From Deltaproteobacteria bacterium (GTDB lineage: Bacteria; Desulfobacterota; Binatia; HRBIN30; JACQVA1), in assembly GCA_016178705.1 (NCBI GenBank), contig JACOST010000011.1, positions 62,001 through 126,000 on the forward strand: a DNA stretch of 64,000 bases. The letters run 5' to 3'. The position numbers were made by a program, and so were the translations under genes. Of the stretch, positions 3,000 through 62,320 are shown one piece after another. Position 1 is the stretch's first letter. Every line of letters begins with the position of its first letter. The notes beneath the pieces are model-generated. The model was not told the DNA's origin and did not search any database. It was given only the letters and a program-made list of their open reading frames with translations.

Positions 3000-3072
3000 C
3001 GCGGGAAATCCAATACCCGTTTGCCCGAGTAGATCGCGAAGCGATCGTATCGAGGGCCGTCTGTGCAAGGCC
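3000..3072. repeat. Dispersed palindromic repeat, family A, truncated copy
   Basis: Contains the right half of a repeat found complete at 6632-6794, 25516-25690 and 62171-62320: a CCCGTTTGCCCGAGTA arm, the inner hairpin GATCGC-GAA-GCGATC and the end CGTATCGAGGGCC. The left half is missing. It sits between the divergent FecR and paaX-type genes and probably overlaps their control region. Confidence 0.75.
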
Positions 3073-3153
3073 AGCGATGGTCGCCGCCAACCCGCCTGGC
3101 GGCGTACATTACAGGGGTTGCATGAAGTCAGCTGTTTGAGTAATGTTCGCGTC

Positions 3154-6614: not shown

Positions 6615-6631
6615 CCCTCTCCGAGTCCTCG

Positions 6632-6794
6632 CTTTGCACAAGCCGGCCCTCGATACGATCGCTTCGCGATCTACTCGGGCAAACGGGTATGGAAGCTGAG
6701 AAACAAAACCGCTTGCGCGAGTAGCGGCCCCGAGTAGAAGCCGAAGGCTTCGTACCGAGGGGTCGCGTATCGAGGGGCCGCATCTTGCACAAAG
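6632..6794. repeat. Dispersed palindromic repeat, family A, full copy (reverse orientation)
   Basis: About 163 bp. Outer inverted ends (CTTTGCACAAG… and …CTTGCACAAAG) enclose GGCCCTCGATACG and CGTATCGAGGGGCC. Each half has its own inner hairpin: GATCGC-TTC-GCGATC on the left and GAAGCC-GAA-GGCTTC on the right. The two inner stems differ in sequence but keep pairing. It fills most of the 297-bp gap before the gene at 6912; nothing else is recognisable there. Confidence 0.85.
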
Positions 6795-19837: not shown

Positions 19838-22800
19838 ATGCCCAAAGACGCGATCACTATCGTCGGCGCGCGCCAGAACAATCTGAAGGGGATCGACGTC
19901 CGGATCCCGCTCGGCGCGCTCACCGTCATCACCGGGGTGTCGGGCTCGGGCAAGTCGAGTCTCGCCTTCGACGTGCTCTATGCCGAAGGGCAGCGGCGCT
20001 ACGTCGAGAGCTTCTCGGCCTACACGCGCCAGTTCCTCGATCGCATGGACAAGCCGCAGGTCGATCGCATCGACGGCGTGCTGCCGGCGATCGCCATCGC
20101 CCAAGGCAACACGGTGAAGACGTCGCGCTCGACTGTGGCGACGATGACCGAGCTGCACGATCATCTGAAGCTACTCTTTGCGAAAATCGGCGTGCTGCAC
20201 TGCCGCCAATGCGGGCAGGTGGTGGGGCGTGACTCGGCCGAGTCGGTGGCAACGCGGTTGGTGCACTACCCCGCAGGTACGCGCGCGCTGATCACCTTCG
20301 CGCTGCCATTGCCGGAGAACTTGCCGTGGGCGGACGCGCGCATCGGGTTGATCCGTTCGGGCTTCCGCCGGCTGCTGGTGAACGGCGAGGTGGTCGATGT
20401 CGAAGCGGTCACGACGGCGCCCGGTGCGACGGTGACGGTGGTGGTCGACCGCGTCGCCGTGCGCGCCGATCACAAGACTCGGTTGGTCGACTCGATCGAG
20501 CAGGCGCTGCGCTTTGGCAAGGGACGCGTGGCGCTGATCTTTCCCGACGAAGCGATGCGCGAAGAACCGTTCGTCGATCGCCTGGAATGCCCGCGCTGCC
20601 ACATCGCGTACCGCGAAGCCACCTCGAACTTGTTTTCGTTCAACAGTCCGCTCGGCGCGTGCGAGACCTGCCGCGGCTTCGGACGCGTCATCGACATCGA
20701 CCTCGATCTGGTGATTCCCGATCCGCGCAAATCGCTCGCCGATGGCGCGGTCAAGCCGTGGAGCACGCCGAAGACCGAATGGGAACGCGGCGAGCTGATG
20801 GCTGTCTGTCGTCGGCGCAAGATTCCGACCGACACGCCGTTCGAGACTCTCAGCGTCGAGCAGCGCGCCATCATCATCGACGGTGAAGACAAGTCGCTCG
20901 GCCGCAAACGCTTCCACGGCATTCGCGGCTGGTTCCGCTGGCTCGAAGGCCGCACCTATCGCATGCACGTGCGCGTCTTTCTCGCGCGCTATCGTAGCTA
21001 CCGCGTGTGCTCAGCGTGCGATGGCGGGCGGCTCAAGCCCGACGCGTTGTTGTTCCGCCTCAACGGCAAGACGATGCCAGAGGTAAGTCAGCTCAGCGTT
21101 GCCGAGGCGGCGGCGTTCTTCGACACGCTGCGCCTGAGCGAGACACAGGAAGAGATCGCGCACCTGATTCTCGCCGAGATTCGCAACCGGCTGCGCTACT
21201 TGCTCGAAGTCGGACTCGACTACCTCACACTCGATCGCCAGTCGCGCACGTTGTCGGGTGGTGAACTGGCGCGCGTCGATCTCACCACCGCGGTGGGCTC
21301 GTCGCTGGTCAACACGCTCTACGTTCTCGACGAGCCCTCGGTGGGTTTACACCCGCGCGACAGCCAGCGGCTGGTGCGCATCCTCCACGCGCTGCGGGCG
21401 CAGGAAAACACCGTGGTCGTGGTTGAGCACGATGCGGAGATCATCCGCGAAGCTGATCACATCATCGATCTCGGACCCGGCGCGGGTGCCAACGGCGGCG
21501 AGGTGGTGTTCGCCGGCAGCTACCAGGACCTGCTCGCCAATGGCCGGCGTTCGCTCACGGGCCAGTATCTCTCCGGCCGCAAGCACATCCCGACGCCGGT
21601 CAAGCGTCGGCCGATCATCCGCGCGCTGCGCCTGCGCATCCGCGGAGCACGCGCGAACAATCTGCGCAACGTTACCGTCGATCTGCCGCTGTCGCGCTTC
21701 GTCTGTGTTAGCGGGGTCTCCGGTTCGGGTAAGTCCACCCTCATGGAGGACGTGCTCTATCGCGGCCTCAAGAAGCGGCTCGGTCAATTCGTCGCGGTGC
21801 CGGGTGAGCACGACGACATCGAAGGCGCCGAGCGCATCGCCGAGGTCGTGTTCGTCGATCAGTCGCCGCTCGGCACGACGCCGCGCGCCAATCCGGTCAC
21901 CTATCTGAAGGCGTTCGATCCGATCCGCACGCTGTTCGCGCAGACCCCGATGGCGCGGATGCGCGGCTATGCCGCCAGCGCGTTCTCGTTCAACGTCGCC
22001 GGCGGTCGCTGCGAAACCTGCACGGGTGAAGGCGTCGAAAAGGTCGAGATGCAGTTTCTCTCCGACGTCTACGTCACCTGCCCCGAGTGCAATGGCGCGC
22101 GCTTCCGCGCCGAGACTTTGGAAGTGAAGTATCAGGACAAGAGCATCCGCGAGGTGCTCGACCTGACGGTGCGCGACGCGCTCGATTTCTTTCACGCCGA
22201 GCCCGAAGTGGCGCGCCGGCTGCAGCCGCTGGTCGATGTCGGGCTCGACTACCTGCGGCTCGGCCAACCGTTGACGACGCTCTCCGGCGGCGAATCGCAA
22301 CGGCTGCGACTCGCCGCGGCGATGGGGCGCGAGGCCAAGCCGCACAGCTTGTTCCTCTTCGACGAGCCGAGCATCGGCTTACACTTCGCCGACGTCGAGA
22401 AGCTGCTCACCGCGTTGCATCGCCTGGTCGAGCGCGGCAACTCGCTGGTGGTGATCGAACACAACATCGACATCATCAAGGCTGCTGACTACGTCATCGA
22501 TCTCGGTCCGGAAGGCGGCCCCGGCGGCGGCACGGTCGTGGCTGCCGGCACACCGGAGCAAGTCGCCGCGGTCGAGGGATCGCACACCGGGCGCTACCTG
22601 CGGCAGGCGCTCAGCCCGGCGGCAGCGATCGAGCCGACGCTGCCGGCGCGCGTGGCCCCGCGGCGCGAGGGCTACGGCGTCATGCGTGTGATCGGTGCCA
22701 GGGAGCACAACCTGCGCGATCTCTCCATCGACTTGCCGCGTGATCAGTTCATCGTCGTCACCGGCTTGAGCGGTTCGGGCAAATCGACGCTGGCGTTCGA

Positions 22801-25504
22801 CATCCTCTACGCCGAAGGGCAGCGTCGCTACCTCGACAGCTTGTCGGCGTACGCGCGCCAGTTCGTGAAAGTGATGGCGCGGCCGGCGGTGGATTTGTTG
22901 TCGGGCATTCCGCCCACTGTCGCCATCGAGCAGCGCCTCAGCCGCGGCAGTAAGAAGTCGACCGTCGCCACGATCACCGAGATCTATCACTACCTGCGCT
23001 TGCTCTATGCGAAGATCGGCGTGCAGCACTGCACGCAATGCGATCGACCGATCGCGGCGCAGACGCGCCAGCAGATCATCGACCGCATCCGCCGCGAGTC
23101 GCGCGGCGAGACCATCACCCTGCTGGCGCCGGCAATTCGCGCGCGCAAGGGGCAGTACACCGATCTGTTTCGCACCGCGCGCAAACTCGGCTTCGCGCGC
23201 GCCCGCGTCGACGGCAAGATCGTCGCGGTGCACCCGGTACCGGCGCTCGCCCGCTATCGCGCGCACGACATCGACATCGTCATCGGCGAGATCGAGGTCA
23301 CACGCGCCGGCGCCGCCCAGTTGCCGGAGCTCGTGGCGACAGCGCTGCGGATGGGAAGTGGTGCGCTCATCGTGACTCGTGCTCGCGACTCGTGTTCGGC
23401 CCCCCGCTCCCGTTCTTCCGAGAACGAACCACGAACACGAGCCACGACTCCAGATCGCGTCTTCAGCGAACGTTTGTACTGCGCCGAGTGCGGGATCGGC
23501 TACGAAGCGCTCGATCCGCGCCTGTTCTCGTTCAACTCGCCACAGGGGGCGTGCCCCGATTGCGACGGCGTCGGCGCGGTGCCGAGTTTCGAGCCGGAGC
23601 TGATCGTCGGCGATCCGGCCCGCCCCATCGGCGACAGCCTGAGTGGTGCCTTCGAGGCGTTCGGCCCGCGGGCGAAGCGCGTGGTGAAGGAAACCGCGGC
23701 CCGCTATCGCGTGGCGCTCGATCGGCCGTTCGCGCGGTTGACGCCAAAACAGCAGGCCGGGTTGTTTCATGGCGACGGCGACGGCGGCGTGATCGGTTTC
23801 CTACAAGAATTGCTCGACGACGAGGAAACCAACCCGTCGCTGCTCGCGCCGTTCATGCACGAACGGGCATGCCCGACGTGCCACGGACGGCGGTTGCTGC
23901 CACGCGCGCAAGCCGTGCGCATCGATGGCCAAGCGATCTGGGAGGTGACGGCGACTTCAGTGGCCACGGCGCACGCGCAATGGACGGCGCGCCGCTTCGG
24001 CGGTCGCGACGCGGTGATTGCGGCGAGCGTGGTGAAGGAGATCGTGCCGCGCTTGCAGTTCCTCGAACAGGTCGGGCTGTCGTACCTCACGCTCGATCGC
24101 CGCGCCGACACGCTTTCCGGCGGTGAGGCGCAGCGCATTCGGCTGGCGGCGCAACTCGGCTCGAACCTGCGCGGCGTCTGCTACATCCTCGATGAGCCGA
24201 CCATCGGGTTGCACCCACGCGACAACGCGATGCTGCTGGCGACGCTCTTGGAACTGAAGCAGCACGGCAACAGCGTGCTGGTGGTCGAGCATGATGAAGC
24301 GACGATCGCGGCCGCGGATCTCGTCGTCGATCTGGGGCCGGGCGGCGGCACCCACGGCGGCGAGTTGGTGGCGATGGGATCGCCGGCAGCGCTGCGCGCC
24401 AACTCGGCGTCGATCACCGGCCGCTATCTCGGGCAGCATCGACCGCGTCTGGGACCGCTCCGCGACTTGCGCGGCCGCGCGCAGCTGAAGGTTGTCGGGG
24501 CGCGCGAGCACAACCTGAAGAACGTCAGCGTCGAGATTCCGCTGGGCGCGTGGACCTGCGTCACCGGGGTTTCCGGTTCGGGGAAGTCGACCTTGGTGCG
24601 CGACGTTTTGTTTGCGGGCGTGCGCCGCCAGCTCGGACTACCAAGTGGCCGCGTCGGCGCGCACGGCGCCATTCGCGGTGTCGAGCATATCGAGCGGGTG
24701 GTCGAGGTCGATCAGACGCCGATCGGGCGCACGCCGCGCTCGATTCCGGCATCGTACGTCGGCTTCTTCGACGACATTCGCAAGCTCTTCGCGATGACCC
24801 CGGAGGCGCGCATGCGCGGCTACACCGCCGGCCGCTTTTCGTTCAACATCAAGGGTGGGCGCTGCGAGAGCTGCATAGGTCAGGGCAAGATCAAGATGGC
24901 GATGAGCTTTCTCCCCGACCTCTACGTCGAATGCGAAGACTGCGGCGGGCGGCGCTTCACCGACGAAACCTGTGCCGTGAGCTACAACGGCCGCAGCATC
25001 GCCGACGTGTTGGCGATGACGATCGAAGAAGCGGTGGCGTTCTTCGCCGGCGTCAGTCACATCAACACGCCGCTGCAGTTGCTCGACGACATCGGCCTCG
25101 GCTATTTGACGCTCGGGCAGGGCAGCAACACGCTCTCCGGCGGCGAAGCGCAGCGCATCAAGCTCGCCTACGAACTGGGGAAGGACTCGCGCGGCTCGAC
25201 GCTGTACGTACTCGACGAACCCACCACCGGGCTGCACTTCGCCGACATCGATCGGCTCATCGATGTGGTGCACCGCTTGGTCGATCGCGGCAACACCGTC
25301 GTCACCATCGAGCACAATCTCGACATCATCAAGGAAGCCGACTGGATCATCGACCTCGGCCCCGAAGGCGGCGATCACGGCGGCGAAGTCGTCGCCATGG
25401 GCCCGCTCGATCACGTCATTGCCAACGGTGGGCGTTCGCACACCGTGCGCTTCCTGCGCGAGTTCGTGAACGGAGGCGCAGAGGCAGCAGCTAGCGGCTC
25501 GTGA
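19838..25504 (+). CDS. uvrA: Double-length UvrA excinuclease subunit
   Basis: 1888 aa, about twice a normal UvrA (about 940). It is two complete UvrA units in one chain, residues 1 to about 940 and about 946 to 1888. Each unit has two ATPase halves: Walker [14 protein letters not shown] and [13 protein letters not shown] in unit 1, [13 protein letters not shown] and [13 protein letters not shown] in unit 2. All four signature motifs remain ([24 protein letters not shown] twice), as do the zinc-finger Cys pairs (for example [12 protein letters not shown]…CPEC and [12 protein letters not shown]…CEDC). UvrA recognises DNA damage as a dimer; here a single chain could be an intramolecular dimer. 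Tandem UvrA proteins are known, for example in Chlamydia. Residues about 1179-1205 are an odd Ser/Arg-rich insert encoded by a palindrome. Confidence 0.95.
23372..23450. repeat. Palindromic insertion inside uvrA, in frame
   Basis: The arms GACTCGTGTTCG and CGAACACGAGCC face each other across about 35 bases, with extra CGTGACTCGTG copies on the left. The segment is translated as a low-complexity Arg/Ser/Thr-rich stretch between the UvrA body and the [11 protein letters not shown] zinc region of unit 2. Unit 1 has only a few residues at the equivalent place. It therefore looks like an inserted dispersed repeat that kept the reading frame. Confidence 0.65.
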
Positions 25505-25515
25505 CGCTCGTGACG

Positions 25516-25690
25516 GTTTGCACAAAAGGGGGTTGCTGCCCCTCGATACGCCGCCCTTCGATACGAAGCCTTCGGCTTCTACTCAGTGCGGCTACGCGGG
25601 GAAGCGGTCTTTTTCTCGAAGAACCCACTGCCCGTTTGCCCGAGTAGATCGCGAAGCGATCGTATCGAGGGCCTGCTTGTTCAAAGCCGG
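25516..25690. repeat. Dispersed palindromic repeat, family A, full copy
   Basis: About 175 bp between the convergent uvrA and WS/DGAT genes. Ends: TTTGCACAA…CCCCTCGATACG on the left and CGTATCGAGGGCC…TTGTTCAAAG on the right. Inner hairpins: GAAGCC-TTC-GGCTTC followed by TACTCAGTGCGGC, and GATCGC-GAA-GCGATC preceded by CCCGAGTA. No coding frame lies inside. Confidence 0.85.
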
Positions 25691-25696
25691 CACTAA

Positions 25697-28577: not shown

Positions 28578-28651
<74 letters not shown>

Positions 28652-33364: not shown

Positions 33365-36007
33365 ATGAAATTCCACCACTGGCCTCGTGGAAAACATCGG
33401 GCCGACCCTCTACTATACAGAAAAGGGAATGACGTTCGGGGTGAGACGGTGACGATCGACTACGACCCGACGATGGACGAGCTTCGCGGCATTGGCGAGC
33501 GCAATCTTGAGTTCATGGAACTCATCGCCAAGCACTGCGCGCACATGAAGGTGGTGCAATCGCCGTTTATGGGTCGCGGTATGGCCGAGGAAATGCTCCA
33601 TATGCCCCTGAACGGCCGGACGATTCGTTGCGAGCACGCGAGGAAACCGGGTGGATCGGCGATCCGATTGGACTGGATCGCCGTCGAGTTCTATCGGGAT
33701 AACTGCGTCCAGTGCCCTTTTCGCGAGCCCAGAGGTGTCCCGAACCTCAAGATGTGCGTCGACGAACTCGACCAGCGCGCCGCGTCGGAAGCGACCGCGC
33801 GCGATCAGGCCCGGCAGAAACAGAACGCCGAGCGTGAGGCGCGCCGTGTTCACCGCCACCGCTTGATCGCGGGCGAGCCGTACGCCACGATCGAACAAAT
33901 CATGCACCTCGATCGGCTCGACGCTGAGTCGGCCGATCACGATGCGGGGACGCAGCTGCGTACCGTTGCCCAGCATGCGCCAGAGCTGTTCACGCCCGCG
34001 GCCGTTGCGGTGCTCATCGAAACCGCCCGTGTGATTGAGCATCCGGCACTGCTCTCCACGCTGCGCGCCCTGGCGCACGCGGGACGTGTCGACGCCCGAC
34101 AAGCAACTGGTGTTGCGCTAGAGACCCTGGCGCACTCAGTGATGGTGGAAGCCGCGCATTTCGTTATTGACTTCTCGGAACACGTCAACGTTGGGGCCCT
34201 TACATCTGCGCTCGACTCGTTGGTGGTCATCGCAGGCCGCTCGGCCGATGGCATACCCCACGAACCGGCGCCAGAACCCAAGCCGCTCCTCGCAGCTCTA
34301 CGCATTGCGCCGATCCATGTACTCGAGCGCGTCGAAGCGTGGATCGCTTCCGATGATGATGCCCAGGCATCTTGCGGCGCACAAGCTGCGGCGGCCATCA
34401 TTGGTGTGGAACCGGGAGCGGCTCCGGTGATTGCGTCGCGGCTTCTCGATCGTCTCGCCCGGGTGCGCGTCGGCCTCTTAACGCGCACCGAAAGGCGGGG
34501 GCCGCTGGGATCGATCACGCGCGCGCTTACGGCGGCACTCCTTGCCGGGCCGGCAAAAGTCCGCAATCTCATCGAGCAGCGCGCTCGGTGTCTTTCGCGG
34601 GAGCTGCGCGACTCGCTGTTTGGAGCGTTCGACGGCGTGGTTCGTCGTTCGCTTCGAACCGAAGGTGATCCCGCGCTCCCGAGCGACGCTGGCCTGATGG
34701 TTGTTGAATTCAGCCTGGAACGGTTGAAGGAAGACTGGGGCACGCAGGTTTCTGTCGAGGCCGCAGATACACTACAGCTGATAGCGCGCTACCACCCCGA
34801 GCTCCTCAAGGGACGAGAGCTCAGAGTCTGGGCGGCAGTCGTAGAGGAAGCGCAATGGGTTAAGCCGGCGCCGACGACGCTGACGATCGCGCCCATGGAG
34901 GACGAAGATCTCCTCGAATCCATGACGGCCACGAGTTCGCACGGGGGACGGCTCTGGCGTCTGCGATCCACGCTCGACCTGCTCCTAACGCACGAGCCCG
35001 ACGCCGTCGCAACAACCGTCTTCGCCCTCCTGAAAGAGAAGGAGCTCCGCGACGAGTCGATCCTCCAGATTCGTGCTGAAGCGGTGCGCGTCCTGGGTCC
35101 GCTCGGATGCCAGCCGAGATTCCTGCGCTCGGTCATCCCATACCTCTATACGGCGCTCTTGGGGACGGACGTGCGTTTGCGAGCGACCGCCGTGGACGCC
35201 TGGGTCGAGATCAGGCAACAAGTAGCAGTCCATGAGCTTCCCGCCGAGCTCGATGCGCTCGTACCGGTACTCCTCGGCGATCCCTATGTCGCCGTCCGGC
35301 TGCGCATGCTCAAAGCAGTAGGGACACTCGGCATTGGCGATGACATGATCGATAGCGCGGCTCTCAGAGTCATCGAGGTTGCGACGCAGAAGCCGGAGGC
35401 ACCGGATGCCATCGAGGATGCCGTGGGGGTGCTGCAATGGCTCGCTTCGCGCACCAAGGATCCGCAGACCGCGATCAAGATTCGGCAGTTCTGTCTCAAG
35501 TTCGCGGGGCAGCTCAATGACTACCGCCTCAGAGACTTCGTGCTGCGCGCCCGTGACGACTTCGCGCGTTACCCGCAGTATGCTGATCTCTTGCTCAAGG
35601 CGCTGACGTCCGAGCTACTCCTCGACCCGATGGACGATCAAGCGCGATGTCTCGAACTCCTGTGGCATGTGCCTCCGTCGATCCTCGGTGGACGTGTCAA
35701 CAGCGTTGTCGCGGCGGCGCGTGCTCATCTGCCTCACCTGCCGTATCGAGCGCTTCGTTATGTCGAGGTGCTCCAGCAAGCCGGGCTCTTTACGGAAGCC
35801 GCCAACCTTTCCGACGAGATCGTGCTCGCCATCCCCGACACCACCGAGTTCGCGCCACGCCGCTCGCACTCGTTCGCCGTACAAGCGGCCGCCCATCTGG
35901 AATGCGAGACTGCCGTCGGCAACGCGGACGGGGTCGCATACTGGCTGGCGCGGTGGCGGGAAGCGCTCGGACTCTACCGCCGCGCGCGCGCCGACGCCGA
36001 GCGATGA
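33365..36007 (+). CDS. Large helical-repeat protein with N-terminal four-Cys cluster (cassette gene A)
   Basis: 880 aa from ATG at 33365 (weak GAGAAGAA site); GTG at 33449 would give 852 aa. I recognise no named family. The N-terminal 140 residues hold Cys89, Cys114, Cys117 and Cys131 (C-x24-C-x2-C-x13-C), suited to a zinc or iron-sulfur site. A charged coiled-coil-like stretch follows at about 138-165. From about 190 to the end the chain is almost all amphipathic helices of 15-20 residues in pairs, often with a Pro or Asp between, as in HEAT/ARM repeats (for example DVRLRATAVDAWVEI and DPYVAVRLRMLKAVGTLG). There are no P-loop, helicase, membrane or signal segments. Its last codons overlap gene B (ATGA), so both are made together. 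A scaffold or sensor role for the nuclease is inference. Confidence 0.8.
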   Translation: MKFHHWPRGKHRADPLLYRKGNDVRGETVTIDYDPTMDELRGIGERNLEFMELIAKHCAHMKVVQSPFMGRGMAEEMLHMPLNGRTIRCEHARKPGGSAIRLDWIAVEFYRDNCVQCPFREPRGVPNLKMCVDELDQRAASEATARDQARQKQNAEREARRVHRHRLIAGEPYATIEQIMHLDRLDAESADHDAGTQLRTVAQHAPELFTPAAVAVLIETARVIEHPALLSTLRALAHAGRVDARQATGVALETLAHSVMVEAAHFVIDFSEHVNVGALTSALDSLVVIAGRSADGIPHEPAPEPKPLLAALRIAPIHVLERVEAWIASDDDAQASCGAQAAAAIIGVEPGAAPVIASRLLDRLARVRVGLLTRTERRGPLGSITRALTAALLAGPAKVRNLIEQRARCLSRELRDSLFGAFDGVVRRSLRTEGDPALPSDAGLMVVEFSLERLKEDWGTQVSVEAADTLQLIARYHPELLKGRELRVWAAVVEEAQWVKPAPTTLTIAPMEDEDLLESMTATSSHGGRLWRLRSTLDLLLTHEPDAVATTVFALLKEKELRDESILQIRAEAVRVLGPLGCQPRFLRSVIPYLYTALLGTDVRLRATAVDAWVEIRQQVAVHELPAELDALVPVLLGDPYVAVRLRMLKAVGTLGIGDDMIDSAALRVIEVATQKPEAPDAIEDAVGVLQWLASRTKDPQTAIKIRQFCLKFAGQLNDYRLRDFVLRARDDFARYPQYADLLLKALTSELLLDPMDDQARCLELLWHVPPSILGGRVNSVVAAARAHLPHLPYRALRYVEVLQQAGLFTEAANLSDEIVLAIPDTTEFAPRRSHSFAVQAAAHLECETAVGNADGVAYWLARWREALGLYRRARADAER

Positions 36008-37527
36008 ACGCTCCTGACACCGCACTCGAACACCGACGCGCGACGCGGGCCCAGACACTGGAAGCGTTGAAGCTCGAAGATGACCCAAGGGCTACCGCTG
36101 AGCGGCTGGCCCGCGCGAGCGTCGCGGTTCGGCGCGATGCTTCGGCGGGCGACGACACACGCGAAGGCCTGTTCTGGCGCGACTATGCGGAGGTCTTGAA
36201 CATTGCCGCCATGCTGAATCTTTGGGACGCTTCAATACGCGATGCGGAGCCCGACGCCGACCGTCACCTGCGGGCGGCAAAGCGACGTCTCGAGACGATG
36301 CGTGTCTATCAGGTCGATCCGCTCTTCGAGCCGCTCAGTGTGGCGCTCACCTTCATCGCTGCGGTCGCTAGCCCTCGCGAGGTTGGGCCGGCGCTCCAAG
36401 CGCTTGCGCGCGTGCCCGTGCCGCTCCAGCTATTGGATCGTGGCCGTGAACGACGACACGGACGACGCGGGATCAGCGAGCAACCTGTCGAGCCGCCGCC
36501 CCTTGTCGTGTGCATGTTCGAGATTGATGGCGCCGTGGTGACGCACCCACATGTGATCCATCTCAATCGCGTCTACGAGGTACGGACGCGCGTGCGTGTG
36601 CCGCATTGGCCCGAATGGGCCGCTGCTTTGCGGCTGGAGTTCCTCTCGGTGCTGGCCCCGAACGACTTGAGCCTTCCGGTCTTCGAAATGCCGAGGCCTC
36701 CCGATACGTACCCAAATGGCCCAAACCTGATCTGCTCCGTTGCGGCCACGGGTTCCCTGGTCCTTCGCGTCGCGCAGGCGCCAGGCGCCGCGCCGTGGCG
36801 GCCACGCGTCGCTGCTTCGTTTTTTGCGCCCGCTCGGGTCGAGCCAGCCAGGGTGGCCGGCTACACGGAACTGCGCCTACGTGCCTTCGATGCATCGCGC
36901 GATCATCTCACGGGACGAGCTTCGATCGACGAGCGTTTGTTAGCGATGTACAGCCAACTCTGGGAGAGCGGCGTCCCCGACGCCGAGATCGCCGCGTTTT
37001 GCCGCTTCTTCACTGCCATTTCCCTCGCAGCACAAGCGATTCAGGCCGACCGCGCGTACGGTGAAGGAAAGCGTTTGAGTGAGGCTGCGTTCCACGACGA
37101 TCTTGAGCGACGGTTACGATCGGATGCCACACTCGGTGGTCGCCTCGAACGTCGCACGCCGGCGGGTGGTGGCTATCTCGACCTGTTGCACGACGGCATC
37201 AACGCCGAACTGAAGATTGAAAACGACAAGCCAGCATCCGTGGATGGCGCAGCAAAGTATATGGGGCAGCCGGTGCAGTACGCGACAGATCGGGGGAGTC
37301 AGCTCTCGATCCTGTGCGTCCTCGACCGATCGGCGAAGCGCGCTCCTGTCGGCGAACTCCCTAATTATTTTGGTTGGCTGATCCCGGCGATCCACGGCCT
37401 CGACGACGCGCGGTATCCGTCGCGCGTCGGTACGCTCATCATCAACGCTAACCTCCCGGTCCCCAGCCAGTGGTCCCGTCGGCGCGTGTCGAGGGCCAGG
37501 CAGCAAGCTGCCCACCCCGGACCGTGA
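36004..37527 (+). CDS. Protein with C-terminal PD-(D/E)xK nuclease motif (cassette gene B)
   Basis: 507 aa; ATG at 36004 overlaps the stop of gene A by 4 bases. Residues 1-140 are helical and Arg-rich; 150-290 look like a beta-rich domain ([21 protein letters not shown] and following strands); 300-350 are helical. The end carries a nuclease core: helix [10 protein letters not shown], then [21 protein letters not shown] with Asp393, Glu402 and Lys404 (D-x8-E-x-K), followed by a helix with GQPVQYATD and a strand LSILCVLD. This is the layout of PD-(D/E)xK nucleases, including the trailing Gln seen in several groups. There is no restriction-modification, CRISPR or helicase gene beside it. I cannot match the pair to a named system; DNA or RNA cleavage triggered through gene A is inference. 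Confidence 0.8.
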
Positions 37528-37547: not shown

Positions 37548-37980
37548 GATCAGTCTGGCGTCGTCTCAGGGCAGCTCCTCGGACTGGCGGTATTCGTGGC
37601 CATCCTCATGGGCATCGGTGCGGTGTTCGGCGCAATGAACACGATGTACGCACTCGTCGCTGCACGCACCCGTGAAATCGGCACGCTGCGAGCGCTCGGA
37701 TTCTCCAAGGTCAGCATCCTGACGGCGTTCGTCGTCGAATCGACGTCCTGGCCATCGTCGGCGGCGCGCTGGGTTGCCGGCTCGCCCTGCCTGCCGACGG
37801 CATGACCTCGTCGGCCATGGGCACGACCTTCGCGGAGATCGGGTTCGCTCTCCGGATCAGCGGGACATCGCTCGTGGTGGGAATGGTACTCGCGGTTCTG
37901 ATGGGTGTCGCGGGCGGTGTGTTGCCCGCGTTCCGCGCGGCACGGATGCAGATCACGTCGGCGCTGAGAGACGCCTAAAA
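37548..37980 (+). pseudogene. MacB/FtsX-type ABC permease fragment, copy 1
   Basis: Encodes the last about 140 residues of an ABC exporter permease: a membrane helix with [20 protein letters not shown], then [20 protein letters not shown], and the final GGVLPAFRAARMQITSALRDA. One T is missing near 37743 compared with copy 2, which shifts the frame in the middle. It has no start of its own. Its sequence matches 39687-40120 closely in direct orientation (about 433 bp). It begins 21 bp after the nuclease gene. Confidence 0.8.
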
Positions 37981-37982
37981 CA

Positions 37983-39482: not shown

Positions 39483-40118
39483 CAGGAAACGATTGGAGTT
39501 GTGGATCAGCGGCTTGTCGGTGCCCACGTCATCGGGTACGTCATCGGCCCCGCGTTCAACCGCGGCGGCTATCACTCAGTCACGCTGCGCATGCGTGACC
39601 CGTCGATGATCAGCGCCCTCAATTCCGAGCTGGAGCACAACCCGCGCATGCAGGTGCAGGCGGTGCAGGAGTGCAAGTACTGCGAGGATCAGTCTGGTAT
39701 CGTCTCAGGGTAGCTCCTCGGACTGCCGATGTTCGTGGCCATCGTCATGGGCATCGGTGCGGTGTTTGGCGCCATGAACACGATGTACGCACTCGTCGCT
39801 GCACGCACCCGTGAAATCGGCACGCTGCGTGCGCTCGGATTCTCCAAGGTCAGCATCCTGACGGCGTTCGTCGTCGAATCGACGTTCCTGGCCATCGTCG
39901 GCGGCGCGCTGGGTTGCCTGCTCGCCCCGCCGGCAAACGGCATGACCTCGGCGGCCATGGGCACGAGCTTCGCGGAGATCGGGTTCGCTCTCCGGATCAG
40001 CGGGACATCGCTCGTGGTGGGAATGGTGCTCGCGGTCCCGATGGGTGTCGCGGGCGGCGTGTTGCCCGCGTTCCACGCGGCACGGATGCCGATCGCGTCG
40101 GCGCTTAGAGACGCCTAA
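39483..40118 (+). pseudogene. MacB/FtsX-type ABC permease fragment, copy 2, with amber stop
   Basis: One frame runs from 39483 to the TAA at 40116-40118 and encodes the periplasmic end (GGYHSVTLRMRDPSMISALN) and the last membrane helices of an exporter permease. A TAG at 39711 interrupts it, where copy 1 has CAG. The N-terminal two thirds and the ATPase partner are missing. The part from 39687 on is the direct repeat of 37548-37980. Each copy carries a different lesion, so neither is functional. Confidence 0.82.
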
Positions 40119-40153
40119 AACATTCCGCGGCTTTCCGCGAATGCGCCTCTGAC

Positions 40154-40199
40154 GCTTCCCCAGCTGGACGTCGCCAGTCCGACCCCGGTCGCCCGCTCT
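40154..40199 (+). repeat. Right attachment repeat (attR), truncated tRNA-Gly end
   Basis: 46 bp matching the tRNA-Gly 3' part at 28606-28651 with three differences: one in the anticodon loop and two in the T arm. The 5' half of the tRNA is absent, so it is not a gene. It closes the 11.5-kb island. Confidence 0.75.
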
Positions 40200-42409: not shown

Positions 42410-45400
42410 ATGTTCGTTCATCGTAGCAATCGCGCCGAGGCGCTGGTCGAGGTGTTGGCGGAGGTGGTCGCGCGGCCGGTTGCCGGGCCGTGGGCAGCGG
42501 AGTGCATCGTCGTGCAAGGCCGCGGCATGGAGCGGTGGCTGTCGATGCAGCTGGCCAGCCGACTTGGCGTGTGGGCCAATCCCAGCTTTCCGTTCCCACG
42601 TCATCTCATTCTGCGCGCGCTCGGCGCGGTCATCGACATCGATGACGTCGCGCACACTTGCTTCGAGCCGGAAATCCTCATGTGGTCGATTGCCGACTTG
42701 TTGGTCGCGCATCTCAATCGCCCAGAGTTCGCGCCGATCCGCACCTATCTCGCCGGCGACGAACGCGGGATTCGTCGCATCCAATTGGCTGAACGCATCG
42801 CGCGCACGTTCGATCAGTACGTGGTTTACCGTCCCCACATGGTGCTGGGTTGGGAGAGCGGCGGCGATACGCACTGGCAGGCCGTGCTGTGGCGGGCGGT
42901 CGTACAACGGCACGGTTCGCATCACGTCGCCGCGCACGCGCGACAGTTTCTCCGCGCCCTCGAACAACCCAACGTACAACTGCGCGACTTCCCCGCACGC
43001 GTGAGTGTGTTCGGAGTTTCGACGCTGCCACCGCTGCATCTGGAGCTGCTGGCCGCACTGTCAAAGCATGTAGAGCTGCATCTCTTCTTGCTCAGTCCGT
43101 CCGCCGAATATTGGGCGGAGATTCGCTCGCGGCGCGAAATGATTCGCGCGCATCGGCGGGACGGGTCGGCCGTCGCGGCAGGTGCCGATCCGTTGCACTT
43201 CGAGGAGACCAACCCGCTGCTGGCGTCATTGGGGCGGCTCGGGCGTGACTTTCAGAGGGTGCTCGAAAGCACGGCGGACTATCGCGAGTCGGATCGCGAT
43301 CTCTACGCCGATCCGGGCGGTGCGACGATGTTGACCGTCCTACAGTCCGACATTCTCTCCCTGCGTCATCGTGGCCCTGACAACACCGACGCTTCCACTC
43401 TCCAACTCGACCCCGGCGACGACTCCATCACGATCCATGCGTGTCACGGACCGATGCGCGAAGTCGAAGTTGTCCACGATCAACTGCTCGCGCTCTTCGA
43501 TGCCGATCCGTCGTTGGAACCACGGCACATCGTGGTGATGTCGCCGGCCATTGATGCCTACGCGCCGTTCATCGATGCCGTTTTCGGCGGCGCCAGCGAT
43601 CACTCCCCGCGCATTCCGTATCGCATCGCCGATCGCGCTGTGCGGGCCACCGACGACGCCGTCGATGCCTTCCTCACTTCGCTCACCGTGCTCCGTGGCC
43701 GGATGGCGGCGAGCGAGGTACTCGATCTGCTCGGCCTTGAGCCGATCCGTCAGCACTTCGGTTTCGTCACCGATGACCTCGACGTCGTGCGTGGGTGGAT
43801 CAAGGAGTCTGGCATTCGTTGGGGTGTCGATGCCGAGCATCGGCGCACTAGCGGACAACCCGCCGTGTCCGACAACACCTGGCGCTTCGGCCTCGATCGG
43901 TTGCTGCTCGGCTACGCGATCGCCGGTGAGGGGCGCCGACTCTATGCCGGCGTGCTGCCGTATGACGAGATCGAGGGCACCACCGCCGCGTTGCTGGGCC
44001 GCTTGGTCGAGTTCTGCGAGACGCTGTTCGCGTTTCACAGTTCATTGCAGACTCCGCGCCCGTTCGATGTGTGGCGTGACGATCTCGGTCGACTGCTCCA
44101 CGCGATGGTCGCGAGCACCAATCAGACGGCGCACCAACACCGGCAGGTTCACGCGGCGTTGGCCGAGCTGGCCGAGCACGCGCGCGCCGGACACTTCGAC
44201 GAGGCCGTCGATCTCGACACCGCTCAGATGCAACTCACCGCCGCGCTGGAGCGCACCGCCCCGGGCCGCGGCTTCTTGACCGGCGGCGTGACGTTCTGCG
44301 CGATGGTGCCGATGCGCAGCATTCCATTTCGAGTCGTCTGTCTGCTCGGGATGAATGACGCGGATTTTCCGCGCGTTCGGCGCGCGCCCGGCTTTGACCT
44401 GATGGCGCAAAAGCCGCTACCGGGCGATCGCTCGTCGCGTGATGACGATCGCTATCTGTTTCTCGAAGCGCTGTTGTCGGCGCGCGAACGTCTCATCATT
44501 ACCTACGCGGGCCAGAGCATCCGCGACAACAGCGAGATTCCGCCGTCGGTGGTGGTGAGCGAACTGCTCGATGTGCTCGGCGAATCCTTTCGTGTCACGG
44601 CGGACACAACCGACCGGTCGCAGCCGATTGAGGACGCGCATGAGTCGATGCGGCAGCGCCTCGTCGTCCGTCATCCGCTGCAACCGTTCAGTCCACGCTA
44701 TTTCGGCGCCGACCAGGATCCGCGCCTCTTCAGCTATGCGCGGCACTACTACGAGGGTGCGCGGGCGCTGACGACTGCGCGCGGGAGCGCGGCACCGTTC
44801 CTCACCGCGCCACTGCCGCTCGATGTTCCGGCGAAGCGCGAGGTCTCACTAACCGCGTTGGCGCGTTTTTTCGAAAACCCCACGCGAGCGTTTCTGCAGA
44901 ACCGCCTATCGCTGTACCTCGGCAAGGACCTCGACACCGTTGAGGATCGCGAGCCGCTGGACCTCGACAACCTCGATCTGTGGAAGCTCGGCGACCGACT
45001 GCTGAAGCACGCGATGGATGGAGAGACCATCGACCAGGCGCTCCCGTCTATGCGCGCGAGCGGAGCGCTGCCGCCGGGCACCCTCGGTCAGTGCACGTTC
45101 GGCGATGTGGGCGGACAAGCCGACGCGCTCGCGACGGCGGCCAGCGCGCTTCGCCGCGGCGCCGAACTGGAGCCGCTGACGATCGACGCCGAACTGGATG
45201 GCACTCGCATCATTGGAGAGATCCACAACCTGTGGCCGAGCGGGCTGGTGCAATACCAGTACTCCAAGCTCGGCGGCCGCCACGAGCTGGGAGTATGGAT
45301 TCGCCATCTGATCCTGAACTGTTTGCAGCCAGACGGTTATCCGCGCGAGAGTTTTCTGATCGGCCGGCCTCGAAAGGACGGCGGTGCCGCCGCGATTCGC

Positions 45401-45763
45401 TTTACTCCAGTCGAGAATGCGGCCGAAATCCTGCGTGAGCTACTGCGGCTCTACTGGCTGGGCCAAGAGTCGCCCCTCCTTTTGTTCGACAAGGCGTCGC
45501 GCACATACGCCGAGACGCTTCGCAGCGGCAAGGGCGCAGCCGCTGCGTTGCGGAACGCACGGAAAAGTTTCGAAGATGACGGCCACAACTGGGGTGATCT
45601 TGGCGACGAGTACGTTCGGCAAGTCTTCGAGGCGGCCGATCCCATCGGCCCCGACTTTCTGTTTCGCGATGCCAGTGAACGCAACAGCGACCACCTCGGT
45701 TTTGCCGAAGTCGCCGTGATCGTTCTTGCGCCCATGCTCGATCATCGACGAGATCATCGATAG
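42410..45763 (+). CDS. recC: RecBCD subunit RecC
   Basis: 1117 aa. N-terminal [20 protein letters not shown] and [10 protein letters not shown] match RecC, as do the middle [39 protein letters not shown] and [12 protein letters not shown] motifs and the C-terminal nuclease-like fold. RecC lacks helicase and nuclease activity but holds the channel that reads Chi and splits the strands. It is first in a compact operon recC-recB-recD (9-bp gap, then 8-bp overlap). Unlike in E. coli, no ptrA lies between recC and recB. Confidence 0.94.
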   Translation: [1117 protein letters not shown]

Positions 45764-45771
45764 GAACAGCC

Positions 45772-48700
45772 GTGACGCCGCTTGATCCCATCACCGTTCC
45801 GCTCACCGTCACGAATCTCATCGAAGCCAGCGCGGGTACCGGCAAGACCCACACGATCACCAACCTCTACGTGCGCATGCTGCTCGAACTGCGCTTGTAC
45901 GTCAGCCAGATCCTGGTGGTGACCTACACCAATGCGGCGACGGCCGAGTTGCGCACGCGAGTGCGACGCCGCCTGCACCAGGCGCTCGCCGCATTTGATG
46001 AGAACGGCACCAGCGGCGACGAGTTTCTCGACCAATTGGTGACGGCCCGCCGAGCGCATGGCTCGGTCGCTCAGGACCGCGAGTGGTTGGTCGACGCGCT
46101 GCACGGCTTCGATGAAGCTGCCATCTTCACGATTCATGGATTCTGCCAGCGCATGCTGCAGGAGAACGCCTTCGAGAGTGCAGTCGCGTTCGACACCGAA
46201 CTCATCAGCAACCAGAGCCCACTGCTCACTGAGGTCGTGCAGGATTTCTGGGTCCGCGAACTGCACGCGGCGCCGGAGGCCTTCGTCCGCCACCTCGACG
46301 CGCGAAAGATCACGCCCACGACACTGGAGCACTTGGCGGTGCGAGTCATCACGCACCCGGACATGCCGATCCTGCCGGCCGTCGGCGCGCCGCGCGACCA
46401 AGACGACGACACCGACCTCGACACTCGGTTGCTCCAGTTTCAACTCGACTTCATCGAGTACGCGCGGCGAGAACTACGCCGGCGCAAGGAACAGGCGCGG
46501 CAGCAGTCGTTCGACGATCTGCTCCATCGCTTGGCGGAGGCCCTGCGCGGCCCCGGCGGTGCGACCCTTGCCGAAACCATCCGCCAGCGATTTCACGCGG
46601 CGCTCATCGACGAGTTCCAAGATACCGACCCGATTCAGTACGAGATCTTCCGCCGCGTCTATCTCGACACCAACGCGGTGTTGTTCCTGATCGGCGATCC
46701 GAAGCAAGCGATCTACGCGTTCCGTGGCGCGGACGTGTTTGCCTACATCCAAGCCAAGCACGATGCCGCGAGTACGCCGCGCACGCTCAACATCAATCGT
46801 CGCGCCGATCCGCACCTGGTGGAAGCAGTGGGCACGCTGTTCGGCCGCCTGACCAAGCCATTCGTCTTCGACGACATTCCCTTCATTCATGTCCAGCCCG
46901 CACCGGACGCCGTCGATCATCTTGGTGGCACCGCCGCAGGGCAGCCGCCGCTGCGGATTCTCTACGTTGATCGTACGATCGCCCAGTGCAGCAACGGCGC
47001 CATCAACAAAGGATGGGGAGACCGGCCACTCACGCGCTTGGTGGCGCGCGAGATAGTGCGCTTTCTCGAATCGGGAGCGACGATCGACGGCCGCCCGGTC
47101 GAGCCCGGCGACATCGCCGTGCTCTGTCGCAAGAACAAGCAGGCGGCGCTGATGCAGGAGACGCTGCGCGAGCTAGGCGTCCCGACCGTGCTGCAAACAG
47201 AAGCCAGCGTCTTCGAGGCACCCGAAGCCGCGGAGATGCAACGCGTGCTGATGGCGATGGTCGACCCCGCCGACTCGCGCGCCATCCGCGCAGCGTTGTG
47301 CACACCCATGCTCGGGCAGCGCGCGGCGGATCTGTGCGCTCTCGACTGTGATGAACAGCGCTGGGACGATTGGGTCGGGCAATTCAGCGCGTGGCACAAT
47401 CTCTGGACGCAACATGGCTTCATCGGCGCCTTCCGGGCGTTGCTCGACTCGCAGGCGGTGCAGCCGCGACTACTCGGATTGCTCGATGGCGAGCGCCGCC
47501 TCACCAACGTGTTGCACCTGATGGAATTGCTGCACGCGGCCAGCACCGAGGAGCGCCGCGGCCCGCACGCCCTCGTCCAGTGGCTGACGCAGATGCGGAC
47601 CGATTCCGATGCCCGTGCCGCACTCGCCGGCGAGGCGGCGCAGATCCGTCTCGAGAGCGACGCCGGTGCTGTGAAGCTCACAACGGTCCACAAGAGCAAG
47701 GGGCTCCAGTATCCCATCGTCTACTGTCCCTACTTGTGGGACGGCGCGTTGCTCAGCGCCAACGATGAGAAGGCCGTGCGCTTTCACGACGCCGCTGATC
47801 ACAATGCGCTGAAGCTCGACATCGGTTCGAGCGAGCACCGTGCTCACACCGCGCTCGCCGAGCACGAAGTCTTCGCGGAGAATCTGCGGCTCTTGTACGT
47901 CGCGCTCACACGCGCGCAGCATTGCTGCACCGTCGTGTGGGGACCGTTTCGCGACGCCGAGTCATCTGCGCTCGGTTACCTGTTGCATCAACCACGTGGC
48001 AGCGATCATCCGAGAGCCGCCACGGCCGCTCACATCAAGTCACTCCGCAAGGCCCCCGACGACCGCGCCATACGGGCCGAACTCGAAACGCTCGCGGCGA
48101 GCGCGCCCGACGCCATCGGCGTTGCCGACCTGTCTCTCCAGCCCGTCGATCGATACCAGCCAATAGTTGCCGAGGCGCGCGCGCTGCGTTGTCGTGTCGT
48201 GAGTCGCGCGCTGCCGCGTACATGGAGAGTCTCGAGTTTCTCAGCGCTCGCCGCGTCCGGAGGAACCATCAGCGAGCCAGCCGAAACCGGGCTGGACCAT
48301 GACGCGACCATCGACGTCGCTCCGAGCGAGGAACAACCGCCGCAACCAGCCGACGAGAGGTTGATCGTACTGCACGATTTTCCGCGCGGCACGCGGGCAG
48401 GACAACTCGTTCATCAAGTTCTGCAGGATCTCGACTTCGACGTACCGGGTCCAATAGCGTCCGAGGTGATTGCGCAGTTGCTCGGACGATTTGGTTTCGA
48501 GGGCAAGTGGACAGAACCGCTGTCGCGGGCCATCGCTGACGTGCTCGCCACCACGCTCGCCGACGGCGCCACGCCACTTCGCCTGCGCGATATTCCGTCG
48601 AGTCGCCGCTTGAACGAGCTGGAATTCATTCTGCCGGTGGCAGACGAATCGCCGACCGAGCGACAGGATTCAGTACCGCTGACTGCCGCGCGCCTCGCGG

Positions 48701-49137
48701 ACGTCTTCACCCGTTACGCAGCGTCGCCGGTTCCATCCGGCTATGCTGAACACGTCCGCAACCTCGGCTTCAGCGCGCTCGCGGGCTTTCTCAGAGGGTT
48801 CATCGATCTGGTGTTCGAGCACAACGGTCGCTGGTACGTCGTCGACTACAAGTCGAACATGCTCGGGCCGCGGGCGCACGACTACGAGCCGGCGAAATTG
48901 ATCGAGCCGATGAGCCAGCACCACTACTTCCTTCAGTACCATCTCTATGTGGTGGCGCTGCACCGCTATCTCGCGTCGCGGCTGCCCGACTACGACTACG
49001 ACCGCCACTTCGGCGGGATTTACTACTTATTCCTACGCGGCATGGCGCCGGGCCACGCGCACCACAACGGCGTCTTCCACGATCGACCGCCGCGTGCGCT
49101 GATCGAGCGCTTGTCGGCTGTGCTCGCTGGTGAGTGA
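45772..49137 (+). CDS. recB: RecBCD subunit RecB, helicase-nuclease
   Basis: 1121 aa from GTG at 45772. SF1A helicase motifs: Walker A EASAGTGKTHTITNLY at about 17-32, VTYTNAATAELRTRVR, Walker B LIDEFQDTDPIQYE, GDPKQAIYAFRGAD, VKLTTVHKSKGLQYPIV and LYVALTRAQHCC. The C-terminal nuclease is intact, with VVDYKSNMLG at about 1023-1032. Together with RecC and RecD it unwinds and degrades double-strand ends and, after Chi, loads RecA. It also destroys linear phage DNA. The length is slightly under that of E. coli RecB. Confidence 0.95.
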   Translation: MTPLDPITVPLTVTNLIEASAGTGKTHTITNLYVRMLLELRLYVSQILVVTYTNAATAELRTRVRRRLHQALAAFDENGTSGDEFLDQLVTARRAHGSVAQDREWLVDALHGFDEAAIFTIHGFCQRMLQENAFESAVAFDTELISNQSPLLTEVVQDFWVRELHAAPEAFVRHLDARKITPTTLEHLAVRVITHPDMPILPAVGAPRDQDDDTDLDTRLLQFQLDFIEYARRELRRRKEQARQQSFDDLLHRLAEALRGPGGATLAETIRQRFHAALIDEFQDTDPIQYEIFRRVYLDTNAVLFLIGDPKQAIYAFRGADVFAYIQAKHDAASTPRTLNINRRADPHLVEAVGTLFGRLTKPFVFDDIPFIHVQPAPDAVDHLGGTAAGQPPLRILYVDRTIAQCSNGAINKGWGDRPLTRLVAREIVRFLESGATIDGRPVEPGDIAVLCRKNKQAALMQETLRELGVPTVLQTEASVFEAPEAAEMQRVLMAMVDPADSRAIRAALCTPMLGQRAADLCALDCDEQRWDDWVGQFSAWHNLWTQHGFIGAFRALLDSQAVQPRLLGLLDGERRLTNVLHLMELLHAASTEERRGPHALVQWLTQMRTDSDARAALAGEAAQIRLESDAGAVKLTTVHKSKGLQYPIVYCPYLWDGALLSANDEKAVRFHDAADHNALKLDIGSSEHRAHTALAEHEVFAENLRLLYVALTRAQHCCTVVWGPFRDAESSALGYLLHQPRGSDHPRAATAAHIKSLRKAPDDRAIRAELETLAASAPDAIGVADLSLQPVDRYQPIVAEARALRCRVVSRALPRTWRVSSFSALAASGGTISEPAETGLDHDATIDVAPSEEQPPQPADERLIVLHDFPRGTRAGQLVHQVLQDLDFDVPGPIASEVIAQLLGRFGFEGKWTEPLSRAIADVLATTLADGATPLRLRDIPSSRRLNELEFILPVADESPTERQDSVPLTAARLADVFTRYAASPVPSGYAEHVRNLGFSALAGFLRGFIDLVFEHNGRWYVVDYKSNMLGPRAHDYEPAKLIEPMSQHHYFLQYHLYVVALHRYLASRLPDYDYDRHFGGIYYLFLRGMAPGHAHHNGVFHDRPPRALIERLSAVLAGE

Positions 49138-51172
49138 GAGCAACCTGATGGCGGCGACGATCGAGACACTCCGTGCCGCGGGTATCCTCACTCCCCTAGA
49201 CGTGCACTTCGCGCAAACGATGGGGCGCATCGGTGGCGAGACACGCGCTGACGTACTCCTCGCGGTGGCGCTGGCCAGCCAGCAGGTCAGCAACGGCCAC
49301 GTCTGCCTCGATCTCGCCCGCCTCGCCGCGACACCGGCGTTGCTCGATGCCGAAGGACAACTCGTTGTCGAGCATCCGTGGCCGCGCTTCGAATCATGGG
49401 TCGAGACGCTGCGAACCAGTCCGCTCATCAGCGACGGCGAGGCGATCGCACCGTTGGTCCTCGACCGCAGCGGTCGCTTGTACCTCCGCCGATATTGGGA
49501 GCACGAGACGGCGCTGGCGGCATCACTGCGCGAGCGGGCAACACAGGTTGAAGTATTGCTCGACAGCACATGGCTGCGACCGGCGCTCGATCGGCTGTTT
49601 CCTCGCGAGACCCCGGGTCAAATGAACGCGAGAGAACCCGATTGGCAACGCATCGCCGCCGTGCTGGCGTTGCAGCGGCGCTTCTGCGTGATTTCCGGAG
49701 GACCTGGGACAGGCAAGACCTACACCGTCGTCAAGATTCTCGCCTTGTTGATCGAGCAAGCCTTGCAGCAACACGTGCGCGCTCCGCGCATCACGTTGGT
49801 GGCACCGACGGGAAAGGCCGCGGCGCGGCTTTCCGAATCGATCCGTGCTGCCAAGGGCACCCTGCCCTGTAGCGACAGCGTGAAGGAATCCATCCCCGAA
49901 GACGCGGCGACCATTCATCGCTGTCTCGGCTCGACGGCCTGGAGCGCGACGACGTTTCGCCATCACGCCGGCAACCCGCTTGTCACCGACGTCGTGTTGG
50001 TCGACGAAGCGTCGATGGTCGACCTGGCGCTGATGCGACGGCTGGTGGCGGCGATCCCGCCGCAGGCGCGGCTGATCTTGCTCGGCGACAAGGATCAACT
50101 CGCCTCGGTCGAAGCCGGCGCGGTGCTCGGCGACATTTGCAACACCGGCGTCGCGCGCAGCTATTCGCCGGCGCTGGTTGACACGATCGCATCACTGACC
50201 GGAGAGCGCGTTCCGCTCAACTCCGAGTCGGCTTCCAGAACAATATCGGGGCATCCCCAATCGTCATTCCGGCGAAAGCCGGAATCCAGGCCAGCCTCCC
50301 ACGCCACCACCTGGATACCGGCTTCCGCCGGTATGACGGACCCGCCAAGGCGAGTCCCTATGCGAGACGCCACCGAATCCTCGCGCGAGAGCGGCATGTC
50401 GGATTGTATCGTCGAGTTGACCACCAGCTATCGCTACAGCGCAGACAGCGGCATCGGCCGCCTGGCGCGAGCGATCAACGCTGGCGACGCCGAGGCGGCG
50501 CTGAGGATCCTCGACTCCAGCGACCATCCCGACGTCGTCCTCATCGAACCCTCGTCGACGCCCGCGCTCAGCGAATCGCTTCGCGACGCGGCGGTGGGCG
50601 GGTTCGGCGCGTACCTCCGCGCGCGCGATCCACGCGAACAGCTCTATGCCTTGGAACATTTCCGCATCCTGTGCGCTCTCCGCCGCGGCCCCAGCGGCGT
50701 CGCGACAATCAATCAACAGATCGAGGACGCGCTGGCCGACGCCGATCTCATCCGACCCAACACGTCGACGTACATCGGCCGGCCGATCATGGTGACGCGC
50801 AACGACTACCAAGTGAATCTCTTCAACGGCGATGTTGGGGTGATTGCTCCGGAGTCAGATCATGCGGATCGCAGGCAAGTAATCTTCCCGGCCGACAAGG
50901 GTCAACTGCGCCGGCTGTCAGTGTCGCGCCTTCCGCCGCACGAAACCGCGTATGCGATGAGCGTGCACAAGAGCCAGGGATCGGAGTTCGACGAGGTCGC
51001 CGTGGTGCTGCCGGCGCAGCCATCGCCGGTGCTGTCGCGTGAACTCCTCTACACGGCAGTCACCCGCGCGCGCCGCGCGGTGACGATTCACGCGTCGCGT
51101 GAAGTCGTGGCGCAAGCCATCGCTCAGTGTATCGAGCGGACATCAGGGCTGCGGGATTTGCTTTGGACCTAA
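49130..51172 (+). CDS. recD: RecBCD subunit RecD, helicase, with repeat-derived insert
   Basis: 680 aa from GTG at 49130, overlapping recB by 8 bases (ATG at 49148 is an alternative). SF1B helicase motifs: Walker A VISGGPGTGKTYTVVKIL at about 187, DEASMVDLALM, GDKDQLASVEAGAVLGDI, ELTTSYRY, the late MSVHKSQGSEFDEV and YTAVTRARRAV. RecD is the 5'-3' motor of RecBCD. Between the GDKDQL region and SYRY lies an in-frame insertion (about 378-404) with the sequence type SFRRKPESR…WIPASAGMT, which is a translated intergenic repeat. The family has a variable surface loop here, so the protein may tolerate it. Confidence 0.93.
   Translation: MSESNLMAATIETLRAAGILTPLDVHFAQTMGRIGGETRADVLLAVALASQQVSNGHVCLDLARLAATPALLDAEGQLVVEHPWPRFESWVETLRTSPLISDGEAIAPLVLDRSGRLYLRRYWEHETALAASLRERATQVEVLLDSTWLRPALDRLFPRETPGQMNAREPDWQRIAAVLALQRRFCVISGGPGTGKTYTVVKILALLIEQALQQHVRAPRITLVAPTGKAAARLSESIRAAKGTLPCSDSVKESIPEDAATIHRCLGSTAWSATTFRHHAGNPLVTDVVLVDEASMVDLALMRRLVAAIPPQARLILLGDKDQLASVEAGAVLGDICNTGVARSYSPALVDTIASLTGERVPLNSESASRTISGHPQSSFRRKPESRPASHATTWIPASAGMTDPPRRVPMRDATESSRESGMSDCIVELTTSYRYSADSGIGRLARAINAGDAEAALRILDSSDHPDVVLIEPSSTPALSESLRDAAVGGFGAYLRARDPREQLYALEHFRILCALRRGPSGVATINQQIEDALADADLIRPNTSTYIGRPIMVTRNDYQVNLFNGDVGVIAPESDHADRRQVIFPADKGQLRRLSVSRLPPHETAYAMSVHKSQGSEFDEVAVVLPAQPSPVLSRELLYTAVTRARRAVTIHASREVVAQAIAQCIERTSGLRDLLWT
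50263..50340. repeat. Palindromic repeat inserted in recD, in frame
   Basis: The left half GTCATTCCGGCGAAAGCCGG faces the right half CCGGCTTCCGCCGGTATGAC across about 35 bases. It is 78 bp long, a multiple of three, and free of stops in the recD frame. A one-sided copy occurs at 54483-54511. Confidence 0.85.
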
Positions 51173-62170: not shown

Positions 62171-62320
62171 TCAAGCGGCCCCTCGATACGCAGCCCTTCG
62201 ATACGAAGCCTGCGGCTTCTACTCAGTGCCGCTACTCGGGAAAGCGGTGTTTTCTTCTCCGAAAATCCAGTACCCGTTTGCCCGAGTAGATCGCGAAGTG
62301 ATCATATCGAGGGCCTCTCG
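62171..62320. repeat. Dispersed palindromic repeat, family A, full copy
   Basis: About 150 bp between the EthD and CoA-transferase genes, with the same plan as 25516-25690: CCCCTCGATACG, GAAGCCTGCGGCTTC, CCCGTTTGCCCGAGTAGATC and a slightly decayed right end (GCGAAGTGATCATATCGAGG). Confidence 0.85.

Follow-up and report, generated by a model that had tools for sequence, protein, structure and literature searches.

Olokun was reportedly described and experimentally tested in a 2022 paper, and PADLOC (2023) models it as two adjacent genes, OloA (PDLC03925) followed by OloB (PDLC03926). Its mechanism is uncharacterised (PMC12592470, PMC12926258). In a stretch of 64,000 nucleotides (nt) from a Deltaproteobacteria bacterium, hereafter the window, two overlapping genes, A and B, are judged by their model matches to be a very divergent member of the pair already recognised by these models, and they probably constitute a two-gene antiphage (anti-mobile-element) system of the long form that the models cover. 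A matched OloA with an E-value of 4.1e-12 (44 bits, residues 106-624) and B matched OloB with an E-value of 5.5e-8 (30 bits, residues 247-451), in the modelled adjacency and order, and the same models were matched by the homologues of A (16/16) and of B (13/13). These matches contradict the initial annotation, which had not taken Olokun into account, in its proposal of an undescribed system and leave standing its statement that the pair fits none of Hachiman, Zorya, Septu, Gabija, AVAST and restriction systems, to which no PADLOC match was found. Those systems resemble the pair in having a nuclease on a mobile island, but the pair comes without an ATPase, helicase, motor or methylase gene. The features of the pair are as follows.

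33365..36007, + strand: gene A, protein matching the OloA model (open reading frame (ORF) of 880 aa; likely start GTG 33449)
33467..33724, + strand: Cys4 module of A (C58, C89, C114, C117), all four Cys invariant in 16/16 sequences
33872..36004, + strand: HEAT-like helical superhelix of A, all helical in the AlphaFold model; best Foldseek matches to karyopherins and the PP2A scaffold (E ~1e-6)
36004..37527, + strand: gene B, protein matching the OloB model (507 aa)
36004..36408, + strand: N-terminal helical domain of B, residues ~1-135 (AlphaFold model)
36502..36855, + strand: beta-sandwich (Ig-like) domain of B, residues ~167-284 (AlphaFold model and Foldseek)
37081..37446, + strand: C-terminal PD-(D/E)xK-like domain of B, residues ~360-481 (model and 18 invariant columns among 14 sequences)
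37180..37215, + strand: catalytic-motif codons D393 ... E402-x-K404 of B (alignment of 14 nuclease domains)
37267..37269, + strand: invariant Q422 of B, downstream of the D/E/K motif (same alignment)

Both reading frames are intact and share the ATGA at 36004-36007, as had been claimed. The claimed length of 880 aa for A holds for the ORF; translation probably starts at GTG 33449, giving 852 aa, because homologues start ~15 residues ahead of a GERN motif and residues 1-28 are unmatched. Residues 1-35 had a predicted local distance difference test (pLDDT) score below 50 in the AlphaFold model. The four-Cys N-terminus noted earlier is a true family character, with the signature NC-x2-C-x2-R-x-P-x-G-x-PN, and R120, R160, R164 and R606 are as invariant as the four cysteines. 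AlphaFold models were built from alignments of 16 rows for A and 13 rows for B. The model of A (mean pLDDT 77.5) is an all-helical superhelix, supporting the HEAT-like helices proposed before; in sequence searches A had nothing significant in Pfam or NCBIfam, with Pfam HEAT_2 at E = 0.08.

The model of B (mean pLDDT 72.7) contains helices at 3-135, a beta-sandwich at 167-284, helices at 306-348 and a C-terminal unit in the order helix-strand-strand-strand-helix-strand, as in the PD-(D/E)xK core, with D393 and E402/K404 placed on adjacent strands. The stretch GGGYLDLL...AELKIEND with these three residues, singled out by the initial annotation, carries the superfamily motif (D...(E)xK plus a downstream Q), which is conserved in all 14 nuclease domains compared; G389, G390, D393, L394, E402, L403, K404, Q422, Y426 and A427 are invariant there. 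The secondary-structure order thus fits a nuclease core, but fold matches to nucleases are weak. Foldseek also paired B with Integrator, STAT and TRAP subunits, but these matches look like generic helix or Ig likeness (template modelling score <= 0.22 on the query) and were set aside. Since Foldseek against the PDB did not confirm it, the nuclease assignment rests on the motif, its conservation, the secondary structure and the match of relatives to the Lamassu effector LmuA. In 9 of 13 B homologues the C-terminal nuclease domain was matched by the C-terminal region of LmuA (PADLOC PDLC03853). In a further comparison with two query sequences, the matches covered 24-159 of the first and 4-125 and 8-125 of the second; the first ~20 residues of the one and the first three letters of the other do not derive from the DNA but fall outside these matches, and relatives show the LmuA match independently. 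Full-length window B had no match to the LmuA model. Unlike Lamassu, the long-form pair has no SMC-like LmuB or LmuC alongside and the rest of B is unmatched; in the window, neither A nor B matched LmuB, and no large intact LmuB-like ORF was found between the island borders.

To find relatives, the DNA form of the zinc motif of A, NC-x2-C-x5-P-x-G-x-PN, was searched across genome contigs, the motif having been derived from window A and a clearer pair from Candidatus Desulfaltia (G217) of the same phylum. As a result, 36 stretches were obtained, about 20 of which are true family members. Their hosts include Serratia, Yersinia, Sulfuricurvum, Sulfurospirillum, Marinobacter, Geomobilimonas, Calditrichia, Verrucomicrobia, Rhodanobacteraceae, Xanthomonas and several alphaproteobacteria, and among the host phyla are Pseudomonadota, Campylobacterota, Calditrichota and Thermodesulfobacteriota. 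In all 18 other genomes whose flanks were retrievable, A is followed by an overlapping B, with one copy each, so that pairing is conserved among the homologues; the overlaps measure 4-155 nt in 17 located pairs (ORF-start estimates), and L094/L114 makes the 18th. The trees of A and B are broadly congruent and both cluster Enterobacterales with Campylobacterota and Calditrichota, so the two genes move between phyla jointly. In each tree the window pair sits on a branch much longer than any other (4.5 and 5.1 changes per column), which leaves its exact position uncertain; it is apparently the deepest branch of the long form.

The closest known counterparts are the long-form pairs of Serratia, Yersinia and E. 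coli PSJ-29 (WP_267441047.1 and WP_058691187.1, both 'hypothetical'). They share with the window pair the gene order and overlap, the Cys4 module and HEAT-like helices of A, the helical, beta-sandwich and C-terminal nuclease parts of B, and the invariant residues. Identity to the window is about 20% for A and 25% for B, and window B carries an insertion and is extended at its C-terminus. The E. coli, Serratia and Yersinia pairs are followed by a third gene of 240 aa (L098 19082-19804, L105 6285-7007), which the window pair lacks.

The family is sparsely distributed. The Serratia pair was matched at 95-99% identity in 6 of 5,426 E. coli genomes, in five of them over at least 80% of the pair, and one of the six copies is cut short. 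Within the phylum of the window, 3 of 395 genomes had any match to A. In the Candidatus Desulfaltia pair (L038/L053), a frameshift disrupts A and an insertion-sequence-type insertion disrupts B. On plasmids and phages, no match to A was found and B occurred only as degraded remnants on Rhizobium and Martelella plasmids, including a nuclease-domain remnant on a Rhizobium megaplasmid (L052 8001-8372). Protein-level scans of genome and viral contigs with B or with two-row alignments retrieved nothing. The sole other match to B among 58 relatives (L002) was dropped, as it falls in the frame of a different gene. An early genome search with OloA was also set aside: it gave 42 genomes, most of them through weak matches between helical repeats, but not the window, and weak OloA matches alone are therefore not taken as evidence.

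Moreover, the pair is found in defence neighbourhoods. Three E. coli islands were read, two adjoining tRNA-Thr and one at another site; in all three a tyrosine recombinase directly precedes A and a SIR2-family gene comes after A, and one carries the Zorya gene zorD. Both pair genes are labelled hypothetical in the E. coli annotation. The neighbours of the 18 pairs matched 212 PADLOC models, compared with 7 for 15 matched controls drawn from those genomes; the matches include Dsr1 in three genomes and a complete GajA-GajB Gabija system in Ensifer. The pair is thus real, conserved, mobile and defence-associated, and the initial reading of a defence cassette stands as regards the conserved pair of a repeat-rich and a PD-(D/E)xK-motif partner, its tRNA linkage and its defence association elsewhere, but not as regards its being undescribed. 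An overlapping pair with a nuclease partner, always on mobile DNA and in one copy per genome, could also be a toxin-antitoxin-like or element-maintenance module, in which B is a toxic nuclease and A a neutralising scaffold, stabilising the island rather than acting against phages. We consider this unlikely, as known antitoxins are far smaller and simpler than A and antiphage genes abound in the neighbourhood. The two readings overlap, because many defence systems are themselves toxin-antitoxin-like.

Several observations weigh against an Olokun-type antiphage role for the window pair. Its scores on the Olokun models are low (44 bits for A, 30 for B) and its proteins are 19-28% identical to relatives. 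B had no sequence match in Pfam, NCBIfam or the PDB, Foldseek against the PDB retrieved no solved nuclease, and nuclease-labelled matches of B in a viral library were weak (a PD-(D/E)XK protein at E = 0.08, the others above). By-eye reading of the window island recognised no other clear defence gene. There is redundancy among the 212 matched models, and the three Dsr1 loci, at 85-87% identity to one another, do not count as independent; the defence enrichment is therefore best read as a clear trend rather than a measured probability.

The models PDLC03925 and PDLC03926 match two architectures with no detectable homology to each other. In the commoner short form, OloA has ~578 aa and no Cys4 module and OloB has ~567 aa with a GVDV...IK nuclease motif near its N-terminus; in the long form, A has ~855 aa with Cys4 and B has ~490 aa and a C-terminal motif. 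Short-form pairs (Klebsiella plasmids, Agrobacterium, G068/G089/G092) resemble the window pair in being two-gene operons that match the same PADLOC models, with a helical A and a B carrying a PD-(D/E)xK-like motif. Strong OloA and OloB matches in the relatives L033, L034, L036 and L037 and on Klebsiella plasmids are short form. The window pair has neither an N-terminal OloB motif nor a ~578-aa OloA, nor, by profile comparison, homology to the short form. When the forms were compared with hhalign, the probabilities were 0.1% for B, 1.3% for A and 0.2% for the nuclease regions.

The long form may accordingly be a defence system separate from the experimentally tested Olokun, with the PADLOC models lumping both, a possibility that we place a little below even. 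Besides the failure of hhalign to detect homology, the model lengths (OloA 596, OloB 556) and the OloB scores (about 600 bits for the short form and about 130 for the long form) suit the short form, and short-form OloB occurs on 34 plasmids while intact long-form B occurs on none. However, both forms match both models along their length, the pair tested in 2022 may be the long form, and remote homology can escape hhalign when sequences are few. Since each form matches both models along its length, the curators' input probably held both; most simply, the seed sets would contain both forms. Tentatively, then, the long form could be a distinct, experimentally uncharacterised defence system under the Olokun label, with the window holding its deepest known lineage, which we regard as slightly less probable than the contrary.

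For the long-form pair we infer metal binding, nuclease activity, a sensor/effector split and phage protection. The zinc module and HEAT superhelix of A would most likely bind a signal of the invader or B itself. The nuclease B would stay inactive until A is triggered, A perhaps holding it inactive, and triggered B would then cut nucleic acid through its C-terminal PD-(D/E)xK domain, which lies behind the helical domain and beta-sandwich. LmuA effectors of Lamassu are thought to act likewise, as nucleases cutting nucleic acid (PMC10586767). The earlier proposal that A senses and B cuts nucleic acid may be kept in conditional form, the motif and predicted secondary structure of B being compatible with it.

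In the window, the pair sits on an 11.5-kb segment bordered on the left by a tRNA-Gly gene and on the right by a 46-nt repeat of that gene's 3' end. A duplicated tRNA 3' end of this kind usually marks integration at a tRNA.

28578..28650, + strand: tRNA-Gly(CCC), left border of the segment
28606..28651, + strand: att-like 46-nt repeat, left copy, the 3' part of tRNA-Gly(CCC)
37548..37982, + strand: 3' fragment of a MacB/FtsX-type permease gene directly after B (gene identity by eye)
39687..40122, + strand: second copy of the permease 3' fragment, 94% identical to the first (436 nt each)
40154..40199, + strand: att-like 46-nt repeat, right copy, 93% identical to the left copy

None of 100 shuffles gave a comparable repeat match, supporting the tRNA link of the mobile island claimed earlier, and the two permease fragments agree with the claim of partly broken island genes. 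The further genes read by eye between the borders encode an amidohydrolase, an alpha/beta hydrolase, a SigJ-like sigma factor, a VOC protein and a cytochrome P450, the last lying between the permease fragments. No integrase ORF was found between the repeats, which suggests an old or decayed element. The third-position guanine-plus-cytosine (GC) content is 0.72 for A and 0.71 for B against 0.74-0.90 for most neighbours, which fits a foreign origin but is not strong evidence. The window copy could itself be a decaying remnant that no longer works, given its branch lengths, the nearby permease fragments and the extra residues of B past PSxxSR, the usual C-terminal end in the family; with both frames open over 4.1 kb and all invariant residues retained, this appears quite improbable.

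Downstream of the island lie recB/recC/recD-like genes (42410-51172), and AlkC, a HEAT-like DNA glycosylase, is among the weak fold matches, both of which would suit a host pathway such as DNA repair, unrelated to defence. We hold this to be very improbable: the pair is rare and patchy in the phylum and in E. coli, it is on islands and transferred across phyla, and, of 15 relatives lacking the synteny of the pair, 12 have RecC. No empty insertion site was found among the relatives, where the recC neighbours have neither tRNA-Gly nor shared flanks.

Other features of the window were also recorded. The RecD-like ORF at 49130-51172 holds an in-frame stretch, SSFRRKPESRPASHATTWIPASAGMTD, reminiscent of a translated REP (repetitive extragenic palindromic)-type element. 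An imperfect tandem repeat at 54844-56422, with ~165-nt units coding 'SPSFADLDGDGDLDAFIG' (FG-GAP/VCBS-like), lies in the apparently frame-shifted ORF pair 54629-56527 and 55501-57123. Dispersed intergenic repeats of ~60-150 nt, 85-94% identical and on both strands, occur at 3006-3075, 6628-6782, 25534-25691 and 62175-62316. One ORF of 1888 aa (19838-25504) consists of two UvrA-like halves, with an internal repeat of 65% over 1.3 kb.

If the models do cover two unrelated architectures, surveys of 'Olokun' mix two systems and results may not transfer from one to the other. The alignments show precisely which residues to mutate, the Cys4 set of A and D/E/K/Q of B, and the E. coli copy of the long form offers a version testable in a laboratory strain.

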